Source: Rubricella aquisinus
GTDB taxonomy: Bacteria; Pseudomonadota; Alphaproteobacteria; Rhodobacterales; Rhodobacteraceae
NCBI RefSeq assembly: GCF_014199445.1
Contig: NZ_JACIJS010000001.1
Span: 186,001-250,000 of the forward strand
Length of the DNA: 64,000 bases
Direction: 5' to 3'
The notes below the pieces were generated by a model. The model had not been told where the DNA came from. It was given only the letters and a program-made list of their open reading frames with translations, and made no database searches. Each line of letters opens with the position of its first letter. Position 1 is the stretch's first letter. Positions 1,593 to 11,611 of this stretch are shown piece after piece. The translations under genes were made by a program, and so were the position numbers.

Positions 1593-1927
1593 TCGGCAGC
1601 CATCGCCTGATCGAGTCGTGCCACATCCATCAGGATGCGGCCCCCACGAACCTCGACGGGCCAAGTGGCCACCTGCCCCTCATCCATGCCCTCGACCATC
1701 CCGCTTTCCAGCGAGATGACCCAATTGTGCAGCGGACAAGTCACGCTGCGGCCATGCTGGATGCCGTTGGACAATGGCCCGCCCTTATGCGGGCAGCGGT
1801 CATCAATCGCGAAGACCTCATCCTGCGCGGTGCGGAACACGGCCACGCATCCAAGCGGTGTTTTGACGACCCGCGCCCCTTCGGTGGGGATGTCGTCCAA
1901 ATGTCCAATGTCGATAAAGCGGGTCAT
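1589..1927 (-). CDS. nirD: Nitrite reductase [NAD(P)H] small subunit NirD (Rieske-type)
   Basis: Small subunit of the cytoplasmic assimilatory nitrite reductase, which reduces nitrite to ammonium. The 112-residue protein has Rieske-like text: CPHKGGPLSNG followed by CPLHNWVISLESG, i.e. two C-x-H pairs able to hold a [2Fe-2S] centre. It starts at ATG 1927, overlapping the nirB stop by a few bases. It ends in an ATGA overlap with nasA, so nirB, nirD and nasA form one translationally coupled unit. Confidence 0.95.
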   Translation of the reverse strand: MTRFIDIGHLDDIPTEGARVVKTPLGCVAVFRTAQDEVFAIDDRCPHKGGPLSNGIQHGRSVTCPLHNWVISLESGMVEGMDEGQVATWPVEVRGGRILMDVARLDQAMAAE

Positions 1928-4362
1928 TCTGCGGCCACCTGTGTCAGATCGGCAAGCGGGGTGAATTCGTGGGCGTCCTTGCCCCCGGCCCGTTCTGCCC
2001 ATGGATCGGTCTGGAAATATTTTTGGGAGTGGAAGAACCGGGCGGCGAGGGCCGTGCGGCTGTCTGCGTCCTCCACCACCTTTTCGATGATGTGATCAAG
2101 GCCGACGCGGTCAATCCATTTCCATGGCCGGTCGAGATAGCGCGCCCCTTCGCGGTAGAGTTGGTAGAAGGCGGCGCAATACTCGATTGCTTCTTCTTCG
2201 GTGGCGACGGTGCACATGAGTTGGGTGGCTTTCACCTCCATCCCCGCAGCCCCGCCGACATGAAGCTGATAGCCCTCCGCGACGCACACGACGCCGAAAT
2301 CCTTGCATGTCGCCTCCGCACAGTTGCGGGGGCAGCCGGAGACGGCGAGCTTGAATTTATGCGGGGACCATGCGCCCCAGAGCGCCTTTTCGATCTTGAT
2401 GCCAAGGCCGGTGCTGTCTTGCGTGCCAAAGCGGCAATGATCGGTGCCGACGCAGGTTTTCACCGTGCGCAGCCCCTTGGCATAGGCGTGGCCCGACACC
2501 ATCCCGGCGGCATTGAGATCGGCCCACATCGAAGGCAGATCCTCTTTCTTGACGCCCAGAAGGTCGATCCGCTGGCCGCCTGTGACCTTGACCGTCGGGA
2601 CATTGTATTTGTCGGCGGCATTGGCAATCGCGCGCAGCTCATCAGGCGTCGTGATCCCGCCCCACATGCGCGGCACGACGGAATAGGTGCCGTCCTTTTG
2701 GATATTCGCGTGCACCCGCTCGTTGATGAAGCGGCTTTGCGCGTGGTCGGCATACTCCTCGGGCCATGCGCATAGGAGGTAGTAATTCAGCGCGGGGCGG
2801 CATTTAGCGCAGCCGCCCGATGAGGTCCAGTGCAGTTTCTGCATCACTTCGGGAATGGATTTCATGCCATCCGCGACGATCAGGCGGCGCACGTCCTCAT
2901 GGCTGTGATCGGTACAGCCGCACATGCCCGCCTCTGCCGGGATCACGAAATCATCGCCAAGGCCAAGGGCGACGACCTGCGCCGTCAGCCCCGCGCAGGA
3001 GCCGCAGGAGGTGCTGGCCTTCGTCTTTGCCGTCACCTCGGCAAGGCTGCCCGCGCCACCCGCAATCGCGGCAAGGATGATCGCTTTGGAGACGCCGTTG
3101 CAGCCGCAAATCTCTGCCTCATCCGGCAAGGCTGCAACGGCCGCCATAGGGTCCAGCGGGGCACCTCCGGCGTAGTTCTGACCAAAGATGAGCGTATCGC
3201 GCCCCTCCGAGATATCCTCGCCATCCTTCAGCTTTTGCAGGAACCAAGGGCCATCGGCAGTGTCGCCATACATGACGATCCCGATGATCCGGTCCTGCGC
3301 GAGAATGAGACGTTTATAGACCCCGCGCGCGGCGTCGCGGAACACGATCTCTTCGCGATCATCGCCATCGGCGAAATCCCCGGCGGAAAACAGATCAACG
3401 CCCGTCACCTTCAACTTCGTGGAGACCATGGGAGGCGTGAACGCCGCCTCCTCCCCCATCAGGGTTTTCGCGGCGACCTTCGCCTGATCATAGAGCGGGG
3501 CGACAAGGCCGAAAATTTGGCCCTGATGCTGCACGCATTCGCCAATGGCGAGGATATCCGGGTCCACCGTGCGCATCTGGTCATCCACGATGATGCCCCG
3601 CTCACAAGCGATACCGCAGGCGGTGCCAAGCGCGGTTGCGGGACGGATGCCAACGGCCATGCAGACCATATCGGCCTCAATCACGCGGCCATCTTTCAAC
3701 AACACCGCCTCGACATGGTCCGTGCCGCGCAATTCGGCAGTGTTGGCCTCCAGCAGCACCTTGATCCCGCGCAGTTCCAGTTCGCGCTTGAGAAGGTATC
3801 CCGCCGCCGGGTCAAGCTGCCGTTCCATCAGGTGACCGGCAAGGTGGATGACGGTCACGTCCATGCCCTGCGCCTTCAGCCCCGCTGCGGCCTCAAGACC
3901 CAAAAGACCACCGCCGATGACGACGGCCTTGGCACCCGGCTTGGCGGCATAGGATTTCATCCGCTCCACGTCATCAAGATCGCGGTAGGCCATGACACCC
4001 GGCAAATCCTTGCCCGGCACCGGGATGATGAACGGATCGGAGCCCGTGGCGATGACGAGCTTGTCGTAGGACAAGGGCCCTTGGCCCGTGGCCACCGTTT
4101 TGGCGACCGGATCGACGGCGGTGATATGCTCCCCAAACCGGGTCGTCACGCCATGGGCAGCGTACCAATCGGAGTCATGGGTGACGATCTCCTCAAAGGT
4201 TTTCTCGCCCGACAAAACGGGGGAGAGCATGATGCGGTTATAGTTCCCGCGCGGCTCCGCCCCGAAAAGCGTGACGTGCACATCCGCGCCCGCGTCAAAC
4301 AGGTGCTCCAGCATCCGGCCAGACGCCATGCCAGCCCCGATCACAACGATATGTTGGGTCAT
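1924..4362 (-). CDS. nirB: Nitrite reductase [NAD(P)H] large subunit NirB
   Basis: Large subunit of assimilatory nitrite reductase (812 residues). In order it shows an N-terminal FAD-binding motif (VVIGAG), an NAD(P)H-binding motif (VIGGGLLGLEAA), a BFD-like [2Fe-2S] domain (CGCNGV ... CGSCAGL, about residues 415-460), a second Cys-rich segment (CGCTDHSHEDVRR ... GCAKCRP), ferredoxin-like repeats, and the siroheme/[4Fe-4S] motifs CVGTDHCRFG and CPRNCAEATCKD. I chose ATG 4362 because GGAG lies 8 bases upstream. A GTG at 4371 overlapping the upstream stop is the alternative. Full-length, with no sign of decay. Electrons flow NAD(P)H to FAD to Fe-S to siroheme. Confidence 0.96.
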   Translation of the reverse strand: MTQHIVVIGAGMASGRMLEHLFDAGADVHVTLFGAEPRGNYNRIMLSPVLSGEKTFEEIVTHDSDWYAAHGVTTRFGEHITAVDPVAKTVATGQGPLSYDKLVIATGSDPFIIPVPGKDLPGVMAYRDLDDVERMKSYAAKPGAKAVVIGGGLLGLEAAAGLKAQGMDVTVIHLAGHLMERQLDPAAGYLLKRELELRGIKVLLEANTAELRGTDHVEAVLLKDGRVIEADMVCMAVGIRPATALGTACGIACERGIIVDDQMRTVDPDILAIGECVQHQGQIFGLVAPLYDQAKVAAKTLMGEEAAFTPPMVSTKLKVTGVDLFSAGDFADGDDREEIVFRDAARGVYKRLILAQDRIIGIVMYGDTADGPWFLQKLKDGEDISEGRDTLIFGQNYAGGAPLDPMAAVAALPDEAEICGCNGVSKAIILAAIAGGAGSLAEVTAKTKASTSCGSCAGLTAQVVALGLGDDFVIPAEAGMCGCTDHSHEDVRRLIVADGMKSIPEVMQKLHWTSSGGCAKCRPALNYYLLCAWPEEYADHAQSRFINERVHANIQKDGTYSVVPRMWGGITTPDELRAIANAADKYNVPTVKVTGGQRIDLLGVKKEDLPSMWADLNAAGMVSGHAYAKGLRTVKTCVGTDHCRFGTQDSTGLGIKIEKALWGAWSPHKFKLAVSGCPRNCAEATCKDFGVVCVAEGYQLHVGGAAGMEVKATQLMCTVATEEEAIEYCAAFYQLYREGARYLDRPWKWIDRVGLDHIIEKVVEDADSRTALAARFFHSQKYFQTDPWAERAGGKDAHEFTPLADLTQVAAE

Positions 4363-4367
4363 GTCTT

Positions 4368-6050
4368 TCACTCCGCCGCGACGCTCGACGCTTGTGTCGG
4401 CTTGGGTTTGGGGGTGTGGCCGTGCTCGTAATCCTCAAGGAATTGAAGCACTTCGCCGCGATACCGATAATAATCGGGGTGATCCAACAGCGCCTTGCGG
4501 GTGCGCGGGCGCGGCAGGTTCACATCCATGATCTTGCCGATGGTGGCGCGGGGACCATTGGTCATCATCACCACGCGGTCAGACAGCAGAACCGCCTCAT
4601 CCACGTCATGGGTGACACAAATCGTGGTGACTTGGGTGCGGGACCACACCTCCATCAGCACTTCCTGCAATTCCCAGCGGGTAAGGCTATCGAGCATCCC
4701 GAATGGCTCATCCAGAAGCAGGAGTTTCGGGGAGAGGGCAAAGGCCCGCGCGATCCCGACCCGCTGTTTCATCCCGTTCGACAGGTCAGCGGCGGGCTTG
4801 TCCATCGCATCGGCAAGGCCGACGCGCTCCAGATAGTATTCCACGACCTCCTGCCGCTCGGCCTGCGTCGCCTTGGGATAAACGCGGTCCGCGCCGATCG
4901 CGACGTTCTCTTTCGCGGTCAGCCATGGAAAGAGGGAGGGTGCCTGAAACACCACCGCGCGCTCCGGGTCCGCGCCCTCTACATGGGTGCCGTCAAGGAT
5001 GATGCCCCCTTTGGAAATCTCGTTGAGGCCCGCCGCCATGGTCAGCGCCGTGGACTTGCCGCAGCCAGAATGCCCGATGATGGAGATGAACTCCCCCTTG
5101 CGCAGCGTCAGGTCGAAATCCTCCACCACCGTGAGCGGGCCTTTGGGCGTGGGATAGACCTTATGCACCTTAGAGAATTGCAGATACCGCGCGTCGTTCT
5201 TGACCACCGGCTCGGCTGCTTCGCGATAGACTTTCGGGGTCATGTGATGGACGGCTGTCACATCGGGCAGGTTGCGGGTGCCTTCGGCCTTGGCCGCGAT
5301 GCCCACATCCATGAGGTATTGCGTGACCTTGCCGCGCAGCGCCTTGAACACCGGATCGTCATTCATCGCGGTGCGGTCGCGGGGGCGGGGGATGGTGACG
5401 GTGAACGCCTCCCCAAAGGTGCCATCGGGATTGAGCGGGATGATCCGATCCGCGAGCAGGATCGCCTCGTCCACGTCATTGGTGATGAGGACGATGGTTT
5501 TCTTTTCGATCTGGCTGATGACCTCGATCTCATCCTGCAAATTCGCGCGGGTGAGGGCATCAAGCGCCGATAGCGGCTCATCCAACAGCAGCACATCCGG
5601 GCGCATCGCCAGCGCACGGGCGACGGCCACGCGCTGGCGCATCCCGCCTGACAGCTCCGCCGGGCGGCGGTCCACCGCGTGGGACAGGCCCACCATGGTG
5701 GTGTAGTGATCGACGATCTCCGCCCGCTCAGCCTTGGACTTGTCGGCATGGACGGCATCCACGGCGAGCGCCACATTGCCGGTCACGGTCAGCCACGGCA
5801 TCAGGGAGTAGGACTGGAACACCAGCCCCCGTTCGGGGGAGGGGCCGGTGACCGGCTCGCCTCGGAAGGTGACGCTGCCCTGATCGGGCAATTCCAACCC
5901 CGCAAGCAAGCTCATCAGCGTGGTTTTGCCCGTGCCGGAGAAGCCCAGCACCGCGACAAACTCGCCTTCGGCCACATCGAGGCTCACATCCTTCAGGATC
6001 GGCCCAGCGCCATATCCTTTATAGACATTCTTAAGGGACAGGATGCTCAT
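4368..6050 (-). CDS. Nitrate ABC transporter ATP-binding protein with two ATPase domains in one chain (NrtC/NrtD-like)
   Basis: Energises nitrate uptake together with NrtA and NrtB. The 560-residue chain has two complete ABC cassettes. Domain 1 has Walker A GFSGTGKTT (36-44), signature LSGGM (133-137), Walker B LLLDEP (154-159) and D-loop SALD. Domain 2 has Walker A GHSGCGKST (326-334), signature LSNGM (423-427), Walker B LLLDEP and D-loop GMLD. The switch histidine of domain 2 is present (THDVDEA, His481), but domain 1 has TNDVDEA with Asn191 in its place, so one ATP site may be degenerate. Cyanobacteria use separate NrtC and NrtD subunits. Here a fusion or duplication supplies both. ATG 6050 lies 5 bases after the nrtB stop. 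Confidence 0.92.
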   Translation of the reverse strand: MSILSLKNVYKGYGAGPILKDVSLDVAEGEFVAVLGFSGTGKTTLMSLLAGLELPDQGSVTFRGEPVTGPSPERGLVFQSYSLMPWLTVTGNVALAVDAVHADKSKAERAEIVDHYTTMVGLSHAVDRRPAELSGGMRQRVAVARALAMRPDVLLLDEPLSALDALTRANLQDEIEVISQIEKKTIVLITNDVDEAILLADRIIPLNPDGTFGEAFTVTIPRPRDRTAMNDDPVFKALRGKVTQYLMDVGIAAKAEGTRNLPDVTAVHHMTPKVYREAAEPVVKNDARYLQFSKVHKVYPTPKGPLTVVEDFDLTLRKGEFISIIGHSGCGKSTALTMAAGLNEISKGGIILDGTHVEGADPERAVVFQAPSLFPWLTAKENVAIGADRVYPKATQAERQEVVEYYLERVGLADAMDKPAADLSNGMKQRVGIARAFALSPKLLLLDEPFGMLDSLTRWELQEVLMEVWSRTQVTTICVTHDVDEAVLLSDRVVMMTNGPRATIGKIMDVNLPRPRTRKALLDHPDYYRYRGEVLQFLEDYEHGHTPKPKPTQASSVAAE

Positions 6051-6055
6051 ACCGA

Positions 6056-7135
6056 TCACCGCTGGCTTGAGAAGGTGAACATGGACTGGATCGCGAACAT
6101 CAACCGGTCCAGAAGATAGCCGATGATGCCGATGGTCAGGACGGCCACCATGATCCGGGCCAGACTGTCGGATGAGCCGTTCTGGAACTCGTCCCAGACG
6201 AATTTGCCAAGACCGGGGTTCTGCGCCAGCATTTCCGCCGCGATCAGCACCATCCAGCCCACACCGAGGCTCAGCCGCAGCCCGGTGAAAATGAGCGGCA
6301 GCGCCGAGGGCAGCACCAGCTTGAGGATGCGCGTCTTGGTGTCGAGTTTCAGCACCCGGCCCACATTGACGAGGTCCTTGTCGATGCTCGCCACACCCAG
6401 CGCGGTGTTGATCAGCGTCGGCCAGAGAGAGCACAGCGTGACCGTAATGGCGGAGGTCAGAAACGCCTTCTCGAACCAGCCATCCTGCGTGGTGTAGACG
6501 GCAGAGACGACCATGGTGACAATCGGCAACCATGCAAGCGGTGAGACCGGCTTGAAAATCTGGATGATCGGGTTCATCGCGGCGTTGAACGTGGCACTCA
6601 GACCACAGGCGATCCCGATGGGCACCGCGACGGCGGTCGCGATCAGAAAGCCGAAGAACACGGTCTGGAGCGACGTCCAAATCTGGCTGTAATAGGTGGG
6701 GGCGCCAGTATAGGCGCGCTCGCGGATGCGGTCCTCATGGCCTGCCTCACGCAGGGCCTGATTGCGGGCTTCCTGCCGTTCGAAAAATTCGGCCTCTTTG
6801 GCCCATTCGCGCTCTGCCTCGCCATGGAGCACCTCGACCTGCTCCCAGACTTGCGCAGGACCGGGGATCGCACCGAGCGACGTTTGCACCCGCGGGGCCA
6901 GCGTGCCCCAAGCCATCAGAAACACCGCAATCGCCAAGAGCGGCACACCCAAAAGGCGCCAGATATCGGCCAGATTGCTGCGCGGATTGTCACCCGCGAT
7001 GATTTTCAGCAGCGGCGTGATCCAGCTCAGACCCAGCACCTTGAACGTGCCGTCGGCCTTGTTGATGCGGGTGAAGTTGCGTTCGCGCCGGGCGTCACGC
7101 GCGGCATTGAGTTCGGGATCGGTCAGGGCGGTCAT
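6056..7135 (-). CDS. nrtB: Nitrate ABC transporter permease NrtB
   Basis: Inner-membrane permease of the NrtB/SsuC type (359 residues). After one N-terminal membrane segment (about residues 50-70) there is a long charged stretch rich in Glu and Arg (about residues 90-145), then the usual block of hydrophobic helices. The region [19 protein letters not shown] coupling text is seen as [15 protein letters not shown], where the ATPase docks. It is longer than cyanobacterial NrtB (about 280) because of the N-terminal extension and charged insert. ATG 7135 is preceded by GGAG at good spacing. It lies 74 bases after nrtA, with a strong stem-loop between them. Confidence 0.93.
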
Positions 7136-7209: not shown

Positions 7210-8577
7210 TTACTGGGCCGCGAGGGAGGACACCGTCTCAACGCCCGACAGGCCAATGGTCAGGCTGTTGATATAGGCGTTGGGCTGGGTGCCATCATAG
7301 GTCACGCCATCGAGGAAGGCATTCGTCGGCTCCTTGAAGCCATTGGTGCCAAAGGGGAAATCCTCAGCGGAGGCATAGCCCGCGTCGATCACCATCTGTG
7401 CGGCCTGCATGTAGATATCGGGGCGATACACCTTTTCCGCGACATCGAAATACCACTGGTCGTCCTTGGCCTCGGGGATCTGACCCCAGCGGCGCATCTG
7501 CGTCAGATACCAGATCGCGTCGGAATAGAACGGGTAGGTCGCGTAGTGGCGGAAGAACACGTTGAAATCAGGGATGTCGCGCACGTCCCCCTTTTCAAAC
7601 TCGAACGTCCCGGTCATGGAAGCCGCGATCACATCCGCATCCGCGCCGACATAGTTGGGGCGGGACAGGATCTCCACCGCTTCGGGGCGGTTGGCGTTGT
7701 CATTCTCGTCAAGCCAGATCGCGGCACGGATCAGCGCCTTGGTCACCAGAAGCGCGGTGTTGGGGTTTTCCTCAACAAACTCGGCGGTCATGCCGAACAC
7801 TTTTTCGGGGTTGTTCTTCCAGATTTGGTAATCGGTGATGACCGGCACTCCGATCCCCTTGAACACCGCCTGCTGGTTCCATGGCTCACCCACGCAATAG
7901 CCGTGGATCGTGCCTGCCTCCATCGTGGCTGGCATCTGCGGCGGCGGGGTGACGGACAGAAGCACATCGGCGTCAATCTGGCCGGTGGTGTTCTCGGGCG
8001 AGTAAAGGCCGGGGTGCAAGCCACCTGCGGCAAGCCAGTAGCGCAATTCGTAATTGTGCGTGGAGACAGGGAACACCATGCCCATGCGGAACGATTCGCC
8101 CTGATTGTTGAATTCCTCGACAACCGGCACCAATGCCTCGGCAGAGATTGGATGGATCGGTTTGCCATCCGCGTCATGGGGGATATGCGGCTTCATCATG
8201 TCCCACACTTCGTTGGAAACCGTGATGCCGTTTCCATTCAGGTCCATGGAGAAGGGGGTGACGATATGCGCCTCCGTCCCGTAGCCGATCGTGGCGGCAA
8301 GCGGCTGACCGGCGAGCATATGCGCGCCGTGCAGGTTGCCGTCGATCACGCCGTCAAGCAGCACTTTCCAGTTCGCCTGCGGCTCAAGCGTGACATAGAG
8401 CCCCTCATCCTCGAAATAGCCAAGCTCATAGGCCACGGCGAGCGGGGCCATATCCGTCAGCTTGATAAAGCCGAAGGTCAGCTCGTCGATTTCGGGAAAG
8501 ATCATCTCACCTTGGGCAAAGGCGGATGTGCTCATAAAGAGCGACGCGACAATCGCGATGGGTTTCTTGAAGGTCAT
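7210..8577 (-). CDS. nrtA: Periplasmic nitrate-binding protein NrtA
   Basis: Solute-binding component of the nitrate ABC transporter (455 residues). It has a Sec-type signal peptide ([14 protein letters not shown]...AFAQG, cleavage near residue 22) and no lipobox cysteine, so the mature protein should be soluble in the periplasm. The text [21 protein letters not shown] is typical of the NrtA/CmpA/SsuA family, and the protein resembles its neighbour NasS, which lacks a signal peptide. ATG 8577 has a GAGGAG ribosome site. It is the first structural gene of the operon, behind a leader with terminator and ANTAR-type hairpins. Confidence 0.95.
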
Positions 8578-8597
8578 ATCCAGTCTCCTCAGACCGT

Positions 8598-8660
8598 AAA
8601 AAACAAAAAAGCCGTCCATTCACGCGCTGGCCCGATGGGTTCAGCGTGGAATGAGCGGCT
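8598..8660 (-). terminator. Leader (conditional) intrinsic terminator upstream of nrtA
   Basis: On the minus strand a long imperfect hairpin runs from AGCCG (8660-8656) to CGGCT (8614-8610). It has inner paired segments TCATTC/GAATGG and CACG/CGTG, and is followed directly by TTTTTTG then TTTTTT. It lies between the promoter and the nrtA ribosome site with no gene before it. This is the arrangement of an attenuator controlled by NasT. Confidence 0.85.
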
Positions 8661-8674
8661 TTGCTCGGTTGGGT

Positions 8675-8712
8675 GACCCCATCTACGAGGTCGCAGGCGG
8701 ACATCGTTGTCC
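8675..8712 (-). ncRNA. Tandem-hairpin ANTAR-type leader RNA element (predicted NasT target)
   Basis: Two adjacent hairpins lie just upstream of the leader terminator in the transcript. The first is GGAC-AACGAT-GTCC (8712-8699), with a six-base loop carrying A1 and G4. The second is GACCTC-GTAGAT-GGGGTC (8692-8675), also a hexaloop with G4 but G instead of A at position 1, and one G-U pair. Two short stems with hexanucleotide loops are the known target of ANTAR proteins. NasT, encoded upstream, has such a domain. Confidence 0.75.
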
Positions 8713-8721
8713 TATGCCCTA

Positions 8722-8750
8722 ATCCTGCGAATCCGGGGATTTTTCGTCAA
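8722..8750 (-). promoter_or_regulatory. Candidate sigma-70 promoter of the nrtA-nasA operon
   Basis: Minus-strand TTGACG (8750-8745) is followed after 17 bases by CAGGAT (8727-8722), or after 18 bases by AGGATT. Transcription would begin near 8715, just before the tandem hairpins. The -35 is good. The -10 is weak, which fits an activated or inefficient promoter. Confidence 0.5.
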
Positions 8751-8832: not shown

Positions 8833-9999
8833 CTAGGTCTGCGGGTGAAATTCGCTTCGGTCAAAGAAGCCGCTGCGCCCGACGCGCACCGGGCCGGATG
8901 TTCCGGGCACGGAAACACCGAGTTCCGTTCGCCCCTCGATTCGCGCGTGCGCCATCGGGACGGAGACATGCAGCGGGCCAAGCGCGCGGTGCATCAGATC
9001 GGGGCGGAAGGTTTCAAGTGCGGCGGCCTGCGCCCTGATCGGGCTGATCCCCCAGGCAGGGGCCGCGCGCTCCGCGATGAAGGCCGCTGCACTTTGCCAT
9101 GGATAGAGCGCGCCCAGACCAGACAGGCGGATCACGTCGGGGGCGTCCACCGTCGCCCCGCTGTGGCGCAATTGCAATCGCCCCAAGAGCGCGCGCTCAA
9201 TCGTCATGGGCGACGCGTCGAGGTAATGCGGCAGCGCCAGAATTTCAGCCGCGACACCCAGATTGCCGCTGACCGTCAGCCACATGCTCGCGCGGTAGAG
9301 CGCACGCACAAGCGCATCCATCGTGTCGGGATGCGCCATGGCCCAGTCAGCCTGAAGTGCGAGCACCTTTTCGGGCGAGGCCGTCCAGATATCCGCGCCC
9401 GAGAGCAGGATTTCGCCCGCGCCGCGCTCAACAGCGACGCTGCCCCATGGCTCACCGACCATGAACACATCAACCTCTCCCGCCTTGAGCACTTCGGGCA
9501 GCACCTTGGGCGGGGCAGTGAGGAACGTCACCTTAGACACATCCCCGCCGGATCGTTCGACCAGCAGGCGGACAAGTTCCTGATGCATCGAATGGGGAAA
9601 CGGCACACCGACGCGCAACCCGCCGGGATCAGCACATTTCACCAGCGCTCGCCCCGTCGCCATCGCATCCCCAAACCGCGCGCCATGCTCGACAAGCCGG
9701 TCGGCAAAATCGGGCCGCGCGGTCAGCGTATCGCCATTGGTGCCCAGCAGCATCGGTGCGACCAGCCCGGCGCGCATCGGCCCCACCCCGGCGGACATGG
9801 CAATCGCGAGGGGCGCCAGCATATGCGCCGCTGGATAGACCCCCAGCGCGATCTTGTCCCGGATCGTGGACCAACTGGTTTCGCGCACCAGCGTGAGGGC
9901 CACGCCTTCCTCCGCCGCGAAGCCCATCTCAAGCGCGATGATCGGCAGGGCCGCGTCGGTGAGCGGAATAAACCCGAGGGAGACATCCGCGCCGATCAT
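8833..9999 (-). CDS. nasS: Nitrate/nitrite sensor protein NasS
   Basis: NrtA-family ligand-binding protein (388 residues) without a signal peptide, hence cytoplasmic. The start VSLGFIPLTDAALPIIALEMGF parallels [20 protein letters not shown] of NrtA. In characterised systems NasS binds NasT and holds it inactive, and nitrate or nitrite releases it. It starts at ATG 9999, overlapping the nasT stop (ATGA), which matches their 1:1 partnership. It lies directly upstream of the regulated nrt leader on the same strand. Confidence 0.93.
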   Translation of the reverse strand: MIGADVSLGFIPLTDAALPIIALEMGFAAEEGVALTLVRETSWSTIRDKIALGVYPAAHMLAPLAIAMSAGVGPMRAGLVAPMLLGTNGDTLTARPDFADRLVEHGARFGDAMATGRALVKCADPGGLRVGVPFPHSMHQELVRLLVERSGGDVSKVTFLTAPPKVLPEVLKAGEVDVFMVGEPWGSVAVERGAGEILLSGADIWTASPEKVLALQADWAMAHPDTMDALVRALYRASMWLTVSGNLGVAAEILALPHYLDASPMTIERALLGRLQLRHSGATVDAPDVIRLSGLGALYPWQSAAAFIAERAAPAWGISPIRAQAAALETFRPDLMHRALGPLHVSVPMAHARIEGRTELGVSVPGTSGPVRVGRSGFFDRSEFHPQT

Positions 10000-10580
10000 T
10001 GCAGCAACTCCGCCGCTGAGATCAGCGCCTCTGCCACGTCGGACACACGCTTTCCCTTGTCCATCGCGGTTTTGCGCAACAGGGCGTAGGCCTCTTCTTC
10101 GCTGAGGCCACGGGCGGACATCAACAGCCCCTTTGCGCGGTCGATGGTCTTACGCTCCGACAGCGCGGTCTGGGTGGCGCGCAGCTCCTTGCGCAACCGG
10201 TCCACCTCATGAAACCGGGCGATGGCCATATCAAGCACCGGGCGTACCCGTTCTGCCCGCAAGCCATCGACGACATAGGCCGACACCCCCGCCGCCACCG
10301 CCGCCTGCATCAGCGCCTTGCCCGAGCGGTCAACGAACATCGCGACGGGCCGGTCCAGCGGGGCGGTCGCCACGGTCAGCGCGTCGATCGTGTCGCGGTT
10401 GGGATGCTCCATGTCGATGAGCACAAGATCGGGGGCAATCTCCTCCAGATCGCGGACAAGCCCGCCCGCGCCACGGCGCAGCACCACGGTCACAGTGTCA
10501 TCTTGTGACAAGGCCGCGACGATCTCTTCTCCACGATCCGTGTTGAGATCAATCACCAAAATCTTCAGCGTGTTGACCAA
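9996..10580 (-). CDS. nasT: ANTAR-domain antiterminator NasT
   Basis: RNA-binding antiterminator for the nitrate operon (194 residues from the chosen start). An N-terminal receiver-like domain (KILVIDLNTDRGEE; LVLIDMEHPN) is followed by a coiled-coil linker (about residues 115-140) and a C-terminal ANTAR domain (ERKTIDRAKGLLMSARGLSEEEAY...). No ATG or GTG lies in frame upstream. The start must be TTG: 10580 has GAGG 8 bases before it, while 10613 would add 11 residues without a ribosome site. Known role: bind tandem hairpins in the leader RNA and prevent termination. Confidence 0.92.
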   Translation of the reverse strand: MVNTLKILVIDLNTDRGEEIVAALSQDDTVTVVLRRGAGGLVRDLEEIAPDLVLIDMEHPNRDTIDALTVATAPLDRPVAMFVDRSGKALMQAAVAAGVSAYVVDGLRAERVRPVLDMAIARFHEVDRLRKELRATQTALSERKTIDRAKGLLMSARGLSEEEAYALLRKTAMDKGKRVSDVAEALISAAELLQ

Positions 10581-10744
10581 CTGGGGAGCCTCGAACAAAG
10601 GGGTCAGGTTCAACTCGAATGCCCGATTGATCAGGCACGCGCGACGGAGTGGTCAACGATCATCGCCTCACAGGGGGCAGGCGAGCGTATGATTTTTGAG
10701 AAGCTGGCGGTTTATTGGGCAATTGAGATGGAAATGGGCAAAGA

Positions 10745-11611
10745 TTACTTGGCTGCCGAGGGCAACACATCCTGCAAGAGCGTGTTGGGAAAGCGGCGCG
10801 ACAGGGTCACGGCGGAGAACGCCTCCTGCACCCCGTCGAGCGCGAGCGCCTCAACGAGTTTACCACTTTTCAGTTCGTCCTGCACGACGATGGGCGGCAC
10901 CAGCGCGATGCCGATATCCTGCCGCGCGAGCAGGCGGAGCATGGCCATGTCATCCGCCTCCGCCACCACATTGGGGCGCAGTTTGTGCTGATCGACCAGC
11001 CGGTCAAATCCCATGCGGATGCCACTTTCGACGGACGGAAGGATGAGCGGCTGATCCAACAGCGCGGCGAGGGTTTTGGCCTCTCCAATCCGTTCGGGCG
11101 TGCCGACAAGGCTCACTGATTGCGTGTCAATCGGATGCACCACCCATGGCGTTGCCGCGTCGCGCGGCGGCACGGTCGTCAGCAGCACCACATCAAGCCG
11201 GTGCGCCTCCAACGCGGCCAGAAGATCGGCCATCCCGCCGGAGCGCAGCACCACCTCCACCCCCGGTTTGCCAAGGATGGGCGCCAGAAACTCAAGCTGG
11301 AAGTTCCGCGACAGGGTCGCGAGTGCCCCCACCCGCAGGATCTGCCGGGGGCCGGATTGGCTGGCGAGCGTGGCGGTCAGCTCCTCCGCGGTGGCAAAGA
11401 TCACATCGGCATGGTCAAGCGCGATGCGCCCTGCCTCCGTCAGGTGCAGCCCGCGCCCGCGCCGCTCAAACAGCGCCTGCCCCATCCTCTGTTCCAGCGC
11501 CTGTATCTGGGTCGAAAGGGCCGATTGCGCGACGTTGAGCCGCCCGGCGGCGCGGGTCAGCGATCCTTCATGCGCCACGGCCCAAAAGGCCCGCAAATGT
11601 GTGTAATTCAT
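10745..11611 (-). CDS. LysR-family regulator, NhaR-like
   Basis: A 288-residue LysR protein. The N-terminal winged helix (MNYTHLRAFWAVAHEGSLTRAAGRLNVAQSALSTQIQALEQRMG) is close in wording to NhaR (NYxHLxxFWxVxxEGS). The C-terminal effector domain starts near residue 95. It sits between the nitrate island and paaX, 76 bases downstream of paaX on the same strand, and no antiporter gene lies beside it. Its target is unknown. The name NhaR-like refers only to sequence type. Confidence 0.85.
   Translation of the reverse strand: MNYTHLRAFWAVAHEGSLTRAAGRLNVAQSALSTQIQALEQRMGQALFERRGRGLHLTEAGRIALDHADVIFATAEELTATLASQSGPRQILRVGALATLSRNFQLEFLAPILGKPGVEVVLRSGGMADLLAALEAHRLDVVLLTTVPPRDAATPWVVHPIDTQSVSLVGTPERIGEAKTLAALLDQPLILPSVESGIRMGFDRLVDQHKLRPNVVAEADDMAMLRLLARQDIGIALVPPIVVQDELKSGKLVEALALDGVQEAFSAVTLSRRFPNTLLQDVLPSAAK

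Follow-up and report, generated by a model that had tools for sequence, protein, structure and literature searches.

The leader region between nasS and nrtA in Rubricella aquisinus (8598-8750) raises the question of how transcription of the nitrate-assimilation genes behind it is controlled, and by which of its RNA structures. It was examined within the window, by which is meant the entire 64,000-nucleotide stretch of DNA that was analysed; the genes and leader elements described below for the window all lie on the minus strand. The statement in the initial annotation that nasT (ANTAR) and nasS stand directly upstream of the leader was borne out by Pfam profile matches. nasT (9996-10613; PF03861, 7.9e-22) encodes an ANTAR RNA-binding antiterminator and, as the only PF03861 (ANTAR) protein detected by a profile search of the genome, NasT is the cognate ANTAR protein available to the leader. 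nasS (8833-9999; PF13379, 5.4e-53) encodes an NrtA-like nitrate sensor, which has no signal peptide as judged from the sequence. The arrangement is that of a NasS-NasT system, in which an NrtA-like sensor lacking a signal peptide adjoins an ANTAR protein beside nitrate-assimilation genes. A gene for a LysR-type regulator (10745-11611) immediately precedes nasT, in the same orientation.

The first of the genes placed under control of the leader is nrtA (7210-8577; PF13379), which encodes a nitrate-type periplasmic binding protein with a signal peptide. Its start, the ATG at 8577, was chosen by the Shine-Dalgarno sequence and the signal peptide, and the ribosome-binding site GAGGAG was read from the sequence at 8590-8585. 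The mechanical open reading frame of nrtA starts at 8619, within the terminator described below (extra stretch 8578-8619), and automatic annotation could misplace the start there. nrtA is followed by nrtB, a nitrate ABC transporter permease (6056-7135; PF00528; best NCBIfam match TIGR01183, at 161.5 bits, below the cut-off of 209), and by an nrtC/nrtD-type double ATPase (4368-6680), in which two stretches match TIGR01184 above cut-off and the true start lies downstream of the mechanical one. Next are nirB, the large subunit of assimilatory nitrite reductase (1924-4371; TIGR02374 above cut-off), a nirD-like Rieske protein (1589-1927) and a nasA-like nitrate reductase running off the low end of the window, the last two read from sequence motifs. 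NasT was also aligned to the RNA-contact residues of EutV (PMC8934654), with the position numbering mapped between the two proteins in this analysis. Lys155, Arg180, Met184 and a basic residue at 189 are kept, and changes occur at 159 (K to R), 185 (N to D) and 187 (R to G).

ANTAR targets are recognized by hexaloops with A at position 1 and G at position 4 (A1 and G4), by a C:G closing pair below the loop, as found in NasR SELEX (PMC7496416), and by short linkers between adjacent hairpins, which measure 5-12 nt in the eut leaders. In the established mechanism, the last hexaloop hairpin has sequence in common with the terminator (PMC3369931; PMC8934654). Three hairpins with C:G closing pairs are present in the leader. 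P1, GGAC-AACGAT-GTCC (8712-8699), and P2, GAGC-AAAGCC-GCTC (8666-8653), both carry A1 and G4 and covary in homologues, and the middle hairpin, GACCTC-GTAGAT-GGGGTC (8692-8675), carries G4 with G at position 1 (G1) and has equivalents in homologues. The linkers are 6 nt from P1 to the middle hairpin (8693-8698) and 8 nt from the middle hairpin to P2 (8667-8674), both within the eut range, and P1 and P2 are separated directly by 32 nt, which is outside it. Counted from loop to loop, the distance is 22 nt between P1 and the middle hairpin and 24 nt between the middle hairpin and P2. An intrinsic terminator hairpin of 49 nt, GCCGCTCATTCCACGCTG...CAGCGCGTGAATGGACGGC (8659-8611; -25.4 kcal/mol folded alone), is followed by the U-tract TTTTTTGTTTTTT (U6-G-U6; 8610-8598), and T-runs occur at the equivalent position in homologues. 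A simple terminator scan missed this hairpin, the stem of which is interrupted and the loop of which is larger than the scan permits. The leader as a whole folds at -62.3 kcal/mol, compared with -45.6 +/- 4.1 kcal/mol for shuffled sequences (z -4.06; 0 of 200 shuffles as low). The TTGACG, the P1 and GTAGAT hairpins, the terminator stem with T-runs and the nrtA ribosome site listed in the initial annotation were all recovered on the minus strand; the third hairpin, P2, was absent from that description.

P2 is the only one of the three hairpins that overlaps the terminator, sharing 7 nt (8653-8659) with its 5' arm. The two structures are thus mutually exclusive, which is not so for the GTAGAT hairpin and the terminator. 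When growing prefixes of the leader were folded, P1 appeared first, then P1 with the middle hairpin, then all three hairpins. The terminator was favoured only once its 3' arm had been made, at -48.4 kcal/mol; enforcing the three hairpins gave -39.4 kcal/mol, a difference of about 9 kcal/mol. In the predicted folding with P2 formed, several unpaired bases lie between the residual upper hairpin and the U-tract. On account of its overlap with the 5' arm, unique to it among the three, P2 is predicted to be the likely antiterminator hairpin.

In the initial annotation, P1 and the GTAGAT hairpin had been taken together as a dual element, with a separate terminator downstream. Both hairpins are real, the 6-nt linker between them fits the published dual motif and G4 is present in both loops. 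However, the GTAGAT hairpin sits between the canonical hexaloops and off the terminator, so binding to it could not prevent termination in the known way. The AAAGCC hairpin of P2, which does overlap the terminator, is also more conserved (95.5% against 68.7% of cells paired in an alignment of 71 leaders that was fitted to the model and hence leans towards the given structure). The dual element is accordingly regarded as very unlikely. The G1 that had been read as a departure in the second ANTAR loop belongs instead to the middle hairpin, and the loop that overlaps the terminator, AAAGCC, keeps A1.

The promoter proposed upstream of P1 stood in part. A -35-like TTGACG (8750-8745) is separated by a 17-nt spacer from a weak CAGGAT (8722-8727), and TTGAC is conserved: of 58 homologous leaders, 17 have it equally far from P1, where about 0.7 would be expected. 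No consensus promoter was found by a promoter scan of the leader, and a good -10 hexamer was not confirmed. The predicted transcription start is at about 8715, just 5' of P1, a position that is uncertain because the -10 box is weak. GCATAGG was considered as the -10 box and rejected, as the start would then fall inside P1.

In the 71 aligned leaders, two-sided compensatory changes were found in 13 of 16 pairs, the closing C:G pairs of P1 and P2 were invariant and 84.1% of cells were paired, a signal that was destroyed (at most 49.2%) by sliding the pairing partners; the lean of this fitted alignment applies to these values also. Two-sided compensatory changes were likewise seen for P1 and P2 in an unfitted MAFFT alignment, and from the raw MAFFT alignment RNAalifold recovered both of these hairpins and not the middle one. 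The register of the middle hairpin shifts among 5-, 6- and 7-nt loops across relatives, and this hairpin was therefore tested by linker shuffling and model-based alignment.

A covariance search for ANTAR RNA had been suggested as a check on the locus. Rfam yielded only a tRNA in the window at the gathering score, and nothing of ANTAR type in the leader even when E values up to 10 were allowed. A purpose-built covariance model (R1), constructed from 51 related leaders with the window left out, matched strongly at 8651-8720 (37.8 bits, E=4e-11), although this score is below that of most homologues (50-72 bits). Over the 3.24-Mb genome the leader was the one convincing match (E=2e-9), the next best having an E of 0.08. 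Weaker matches, of 12.8-15 bits, in both the window and the genome were put down to chance, and no leader context was seen around L157, the one examined. Among 120 sampled family genomes, 37 gave R1 matches below E=1e-6; all 37 encode NasT according to a separate protein search, and none of the genomes without NasT gave such a match. The held-out match, this co-occurrence, the sole ANTAR gene being nasT and the covariation of P1 and P2 uphold the initial reading of the region as an ANTAR/NasT nitrate leader.

A NasT profile retrieved 80 loci, nearly all from Rhodobacteraceae, and in the majority of them nasS is followed by the same leader. The majority loops are AAAGCC for P2 and AANGRN for P1, frequencies that are conditioned rather than fully independent, since P2-type loops guided the choice of relatives and both hairpins were located with A1 and G4 in mind. 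In other alphaproteobacterial families, triple arrays lie beside nasT in L188 (which may be a member of the window's own family), L192, L199, L201 and L204, and dual arrays in L202, L203 and L207. Other Pseudomonadota have dual arrays (e.g. L246, L250 and L251) and triple arrays (L244 and L254). The array scan gave zero matches on first-order Markov sequences. Several relatives also carry a second copy of the leader, with terminator, before siroheme synthase or uroporphyrinogen-III methyltransferase genes (L150, 993-1059; L151, 1026-1091; L152, 5877-5942, minus strand; L073, 4210-4270, minus strand); none was found in the genome of the window. The placement of these copies suggests that in such relatives NasT may also control the supply of cofactor for nitrite reductase.

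These observations bear on whether the hairpin and U-tract could be no more than the end-of-operon terminator of nasTS, with nrtA transcribed from an unregulated promoter of its own. The element is indeed positioned between nasS and nrtA, and additional termination of the nasTS transcript there is plausible. However, the conserved TTGAC upstream of P1 puts transcription through the terminator, the same element occurs before siroheme-synthase genes away from nasS, and compensatory changes, an overlap of P2 with the terminator and co-occurrence with nasT would be unexpected for a plain terminator. A mere nasTS terminator is considered scarcely credible.

The leader is most probably a NasT-controlled, nitrate-induced antitermination element of nrtABCD-nirBD-nasA, a reading to which a probability of roughly 0.87 is given. 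Its basis computed here comprises the anatomy, the exclusivity of P2 and terminator (from sequence and predicted folding), the conservation, the covariation and the co-occurrence with nasT; protein binding, nitrate release and read-through are carried over from published work on NasT, NasR and EutV. By this analogy, transcription would start close to P1, and the P1, middle and P2 hairpins would form in turn as the RNA emerges, at a spacing of about 22-24 nt. When nitrate is absent, NasS would hold NasT, the terminator (8659-8611) would displace P2 and transcription would stop at the U-tract. When nitrate or nitrite is present, NasS would release NasT, and a NasT ANTAR dimer or oligomer may bind P1, pass along the array and hold P2. 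With P2 held, the base of the terminator could not form, and RNA polymerase would read into nrtABCD-nirBD-nasA.

Among the closest known systems is the nasA leader of Paracoccus denitrificans, which is likewise located between nasS and the nas operon and served by NasS-NasT regulators. There, NasT binds the leader RNA, NasS-NasT dissociates on nitrate and free NasT behaves roughly as a hexamer (PMC3795266). The published description has two hairpins (PMC5424462), whereas three hexaloops with a purine at position 1 and G4 (AACGGC, AATGAT and GACGAT; 25 and 23 nt spacing) were found in the sequence, as in the window. Judged from their distances, the hairpins published as HI, at 137 bp upstream, and HII, at 91 bp, correspond to the first and third of three extended hexaloops in that genome (L102), and the second (cgcAATGATgcg) apparently lies outside the published hairpin changes. 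Replacement of HI abolished growth on nitrate, whereas altering HII was of little consequence on nitrate and doubled basal expression in ammonium (PMC5424462). Unlike the window, P. denitrificans has a terminator-like hairpin without a U-tract, and no A1 hexaloop was found overlapping that hairpin. The nasF leader of Klebsiella oxytoca, controlled by NasR, is similar in that an ANTAR protein antiterminates a nitrate-assimilation operon in response to nitrate, and in its A1/G4 hexaloops with C:G closing pairs (PMC7496416), but it has two hairpins, and sensor and ANTAR domain are combined in the one protein, NasR, in place of NasS plus NasT. In the eut leaders of Enterococcus faecalis, the P2 hexaloop overlaps the terminator (PMC3369931; PMC8934654) and the adjacent-hairpin linkers match those of the window. 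In contrast, the eut array is dual, and EutV is controlled through its phosphorylation rather than by being released from a nitrate sensor.

What the middle hairpin does, whether it also binds NasT or serves mainly as a spacer, is the least certain part of the best explanation. This hairpin is less regular than P1 and P2, yet conserved. In statistics that ignore the shared ancestry of the leaders, linker stems scored 7.0 against 5.06 +/- 0.25 in 300 sets of dinucleotide shuffles, and a strict purine-1/G4 hexaloop occurred in 21 of 58 linkers (1.7 +/- 1.3 expected from shuffles), rising to 32 of 58 (2.8 expected) when 7-nt loops were allowed. Homologues usually have spacings of 26-29 nt from P1 to the middle hairpin and 19-21 nt from there to P2, from which the 22 and 24 nt of the window differ. 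In one form of the explanation, held tentatively and at somewhat less than even odds, the NasT leaders of Rhodobacteraceae and some other Pseudomonadota would carry three hexaloops in an array, and a NasT oligomer would be passed down it to the hairpin that overlaps the terminator, the middle hairpin (often G1) being a genuine, weaker third NasT site. If true, this would enlarge the ANTAR motif, which is accepted as a dual hexaloop, and could account for the size of free NasT, which exceeds that of a dimer.

In a variant of the same explanation, differing solely in what the middle hairpin does, NasT would bind P1 and P2 only, and the middle hairpin would fold away the 32-nt linker and bring both sites within reach of one NasT dimer. 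The gap of 32 nt exceeds the 5-12 nt of eut (PMC3369931) and the 2-25 nt range adopted for actinobacteria (PMC8164766), and the insertion of 20 nt abolishes antitermination by EutV (PMC8934654). By eye, an apparent tetraloop hairpin, e.g. CCCG-GAAA-CGGG, stands between P1 and P2 in L245, L247 and L248 (other Pseudomonadota), and in those leaders a spacer role is favoured. On the other side, a middle loop with purine 1 and G4 is far commoner than in shuffles, the middle hairpin of the window is a strict hexaloop with a C:G closing pair, and Paracoccus, like several other alphaproteobacteria, has a middle hexaloop of the canonical A1/G4 type. A spacer role is a reasonable possibility, though not one to be backed outright. 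Since a hairpin recurs between P1 and P2 but has a hexaloop in only some of the leaders, both readings, spacer and third site, stand.

NasT-type ANTAR antitermination is a known kind of switch. No three-hairpin ANTAR targets were found in a literature search of open-licence papers, and no earlier description was found of this variant, in which there are three hairpins and the predicted antiterminator is the last of them. Owing to linkers of 6 and 8 nt, each adjacent hairpin pair has the published dual-motif geometry, which P1 and P2 (32 nt) do not have. ANTAR antitermination has been modelled on a dual-hexaloop target, and a conserved triple version makes the hand-off model directly testable. 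Search practice for such leaders also changes, as pairing only the first two hairpins misses the functional one. The R1 model finds candidate NasT regulons, among them siroheme synthesis, which supplies the cofactor of nitrite reductase.

One further feature was seen in relatives. Of the 58 homologous leaders, 14 (among them L034, L044 and L095) carry CTCCTCCC or CTCCTTCC in the apical loop of the terminator, and neither is present in the leader of the window. Both are complementary to Shine-Dalgarno sequences and resemble the CCUCCUCCC motif that occurs in small RNAs of Rhodobacter and rhizobia. In the relatives with such a loop, the terminated leader might itself act as a small RNA.
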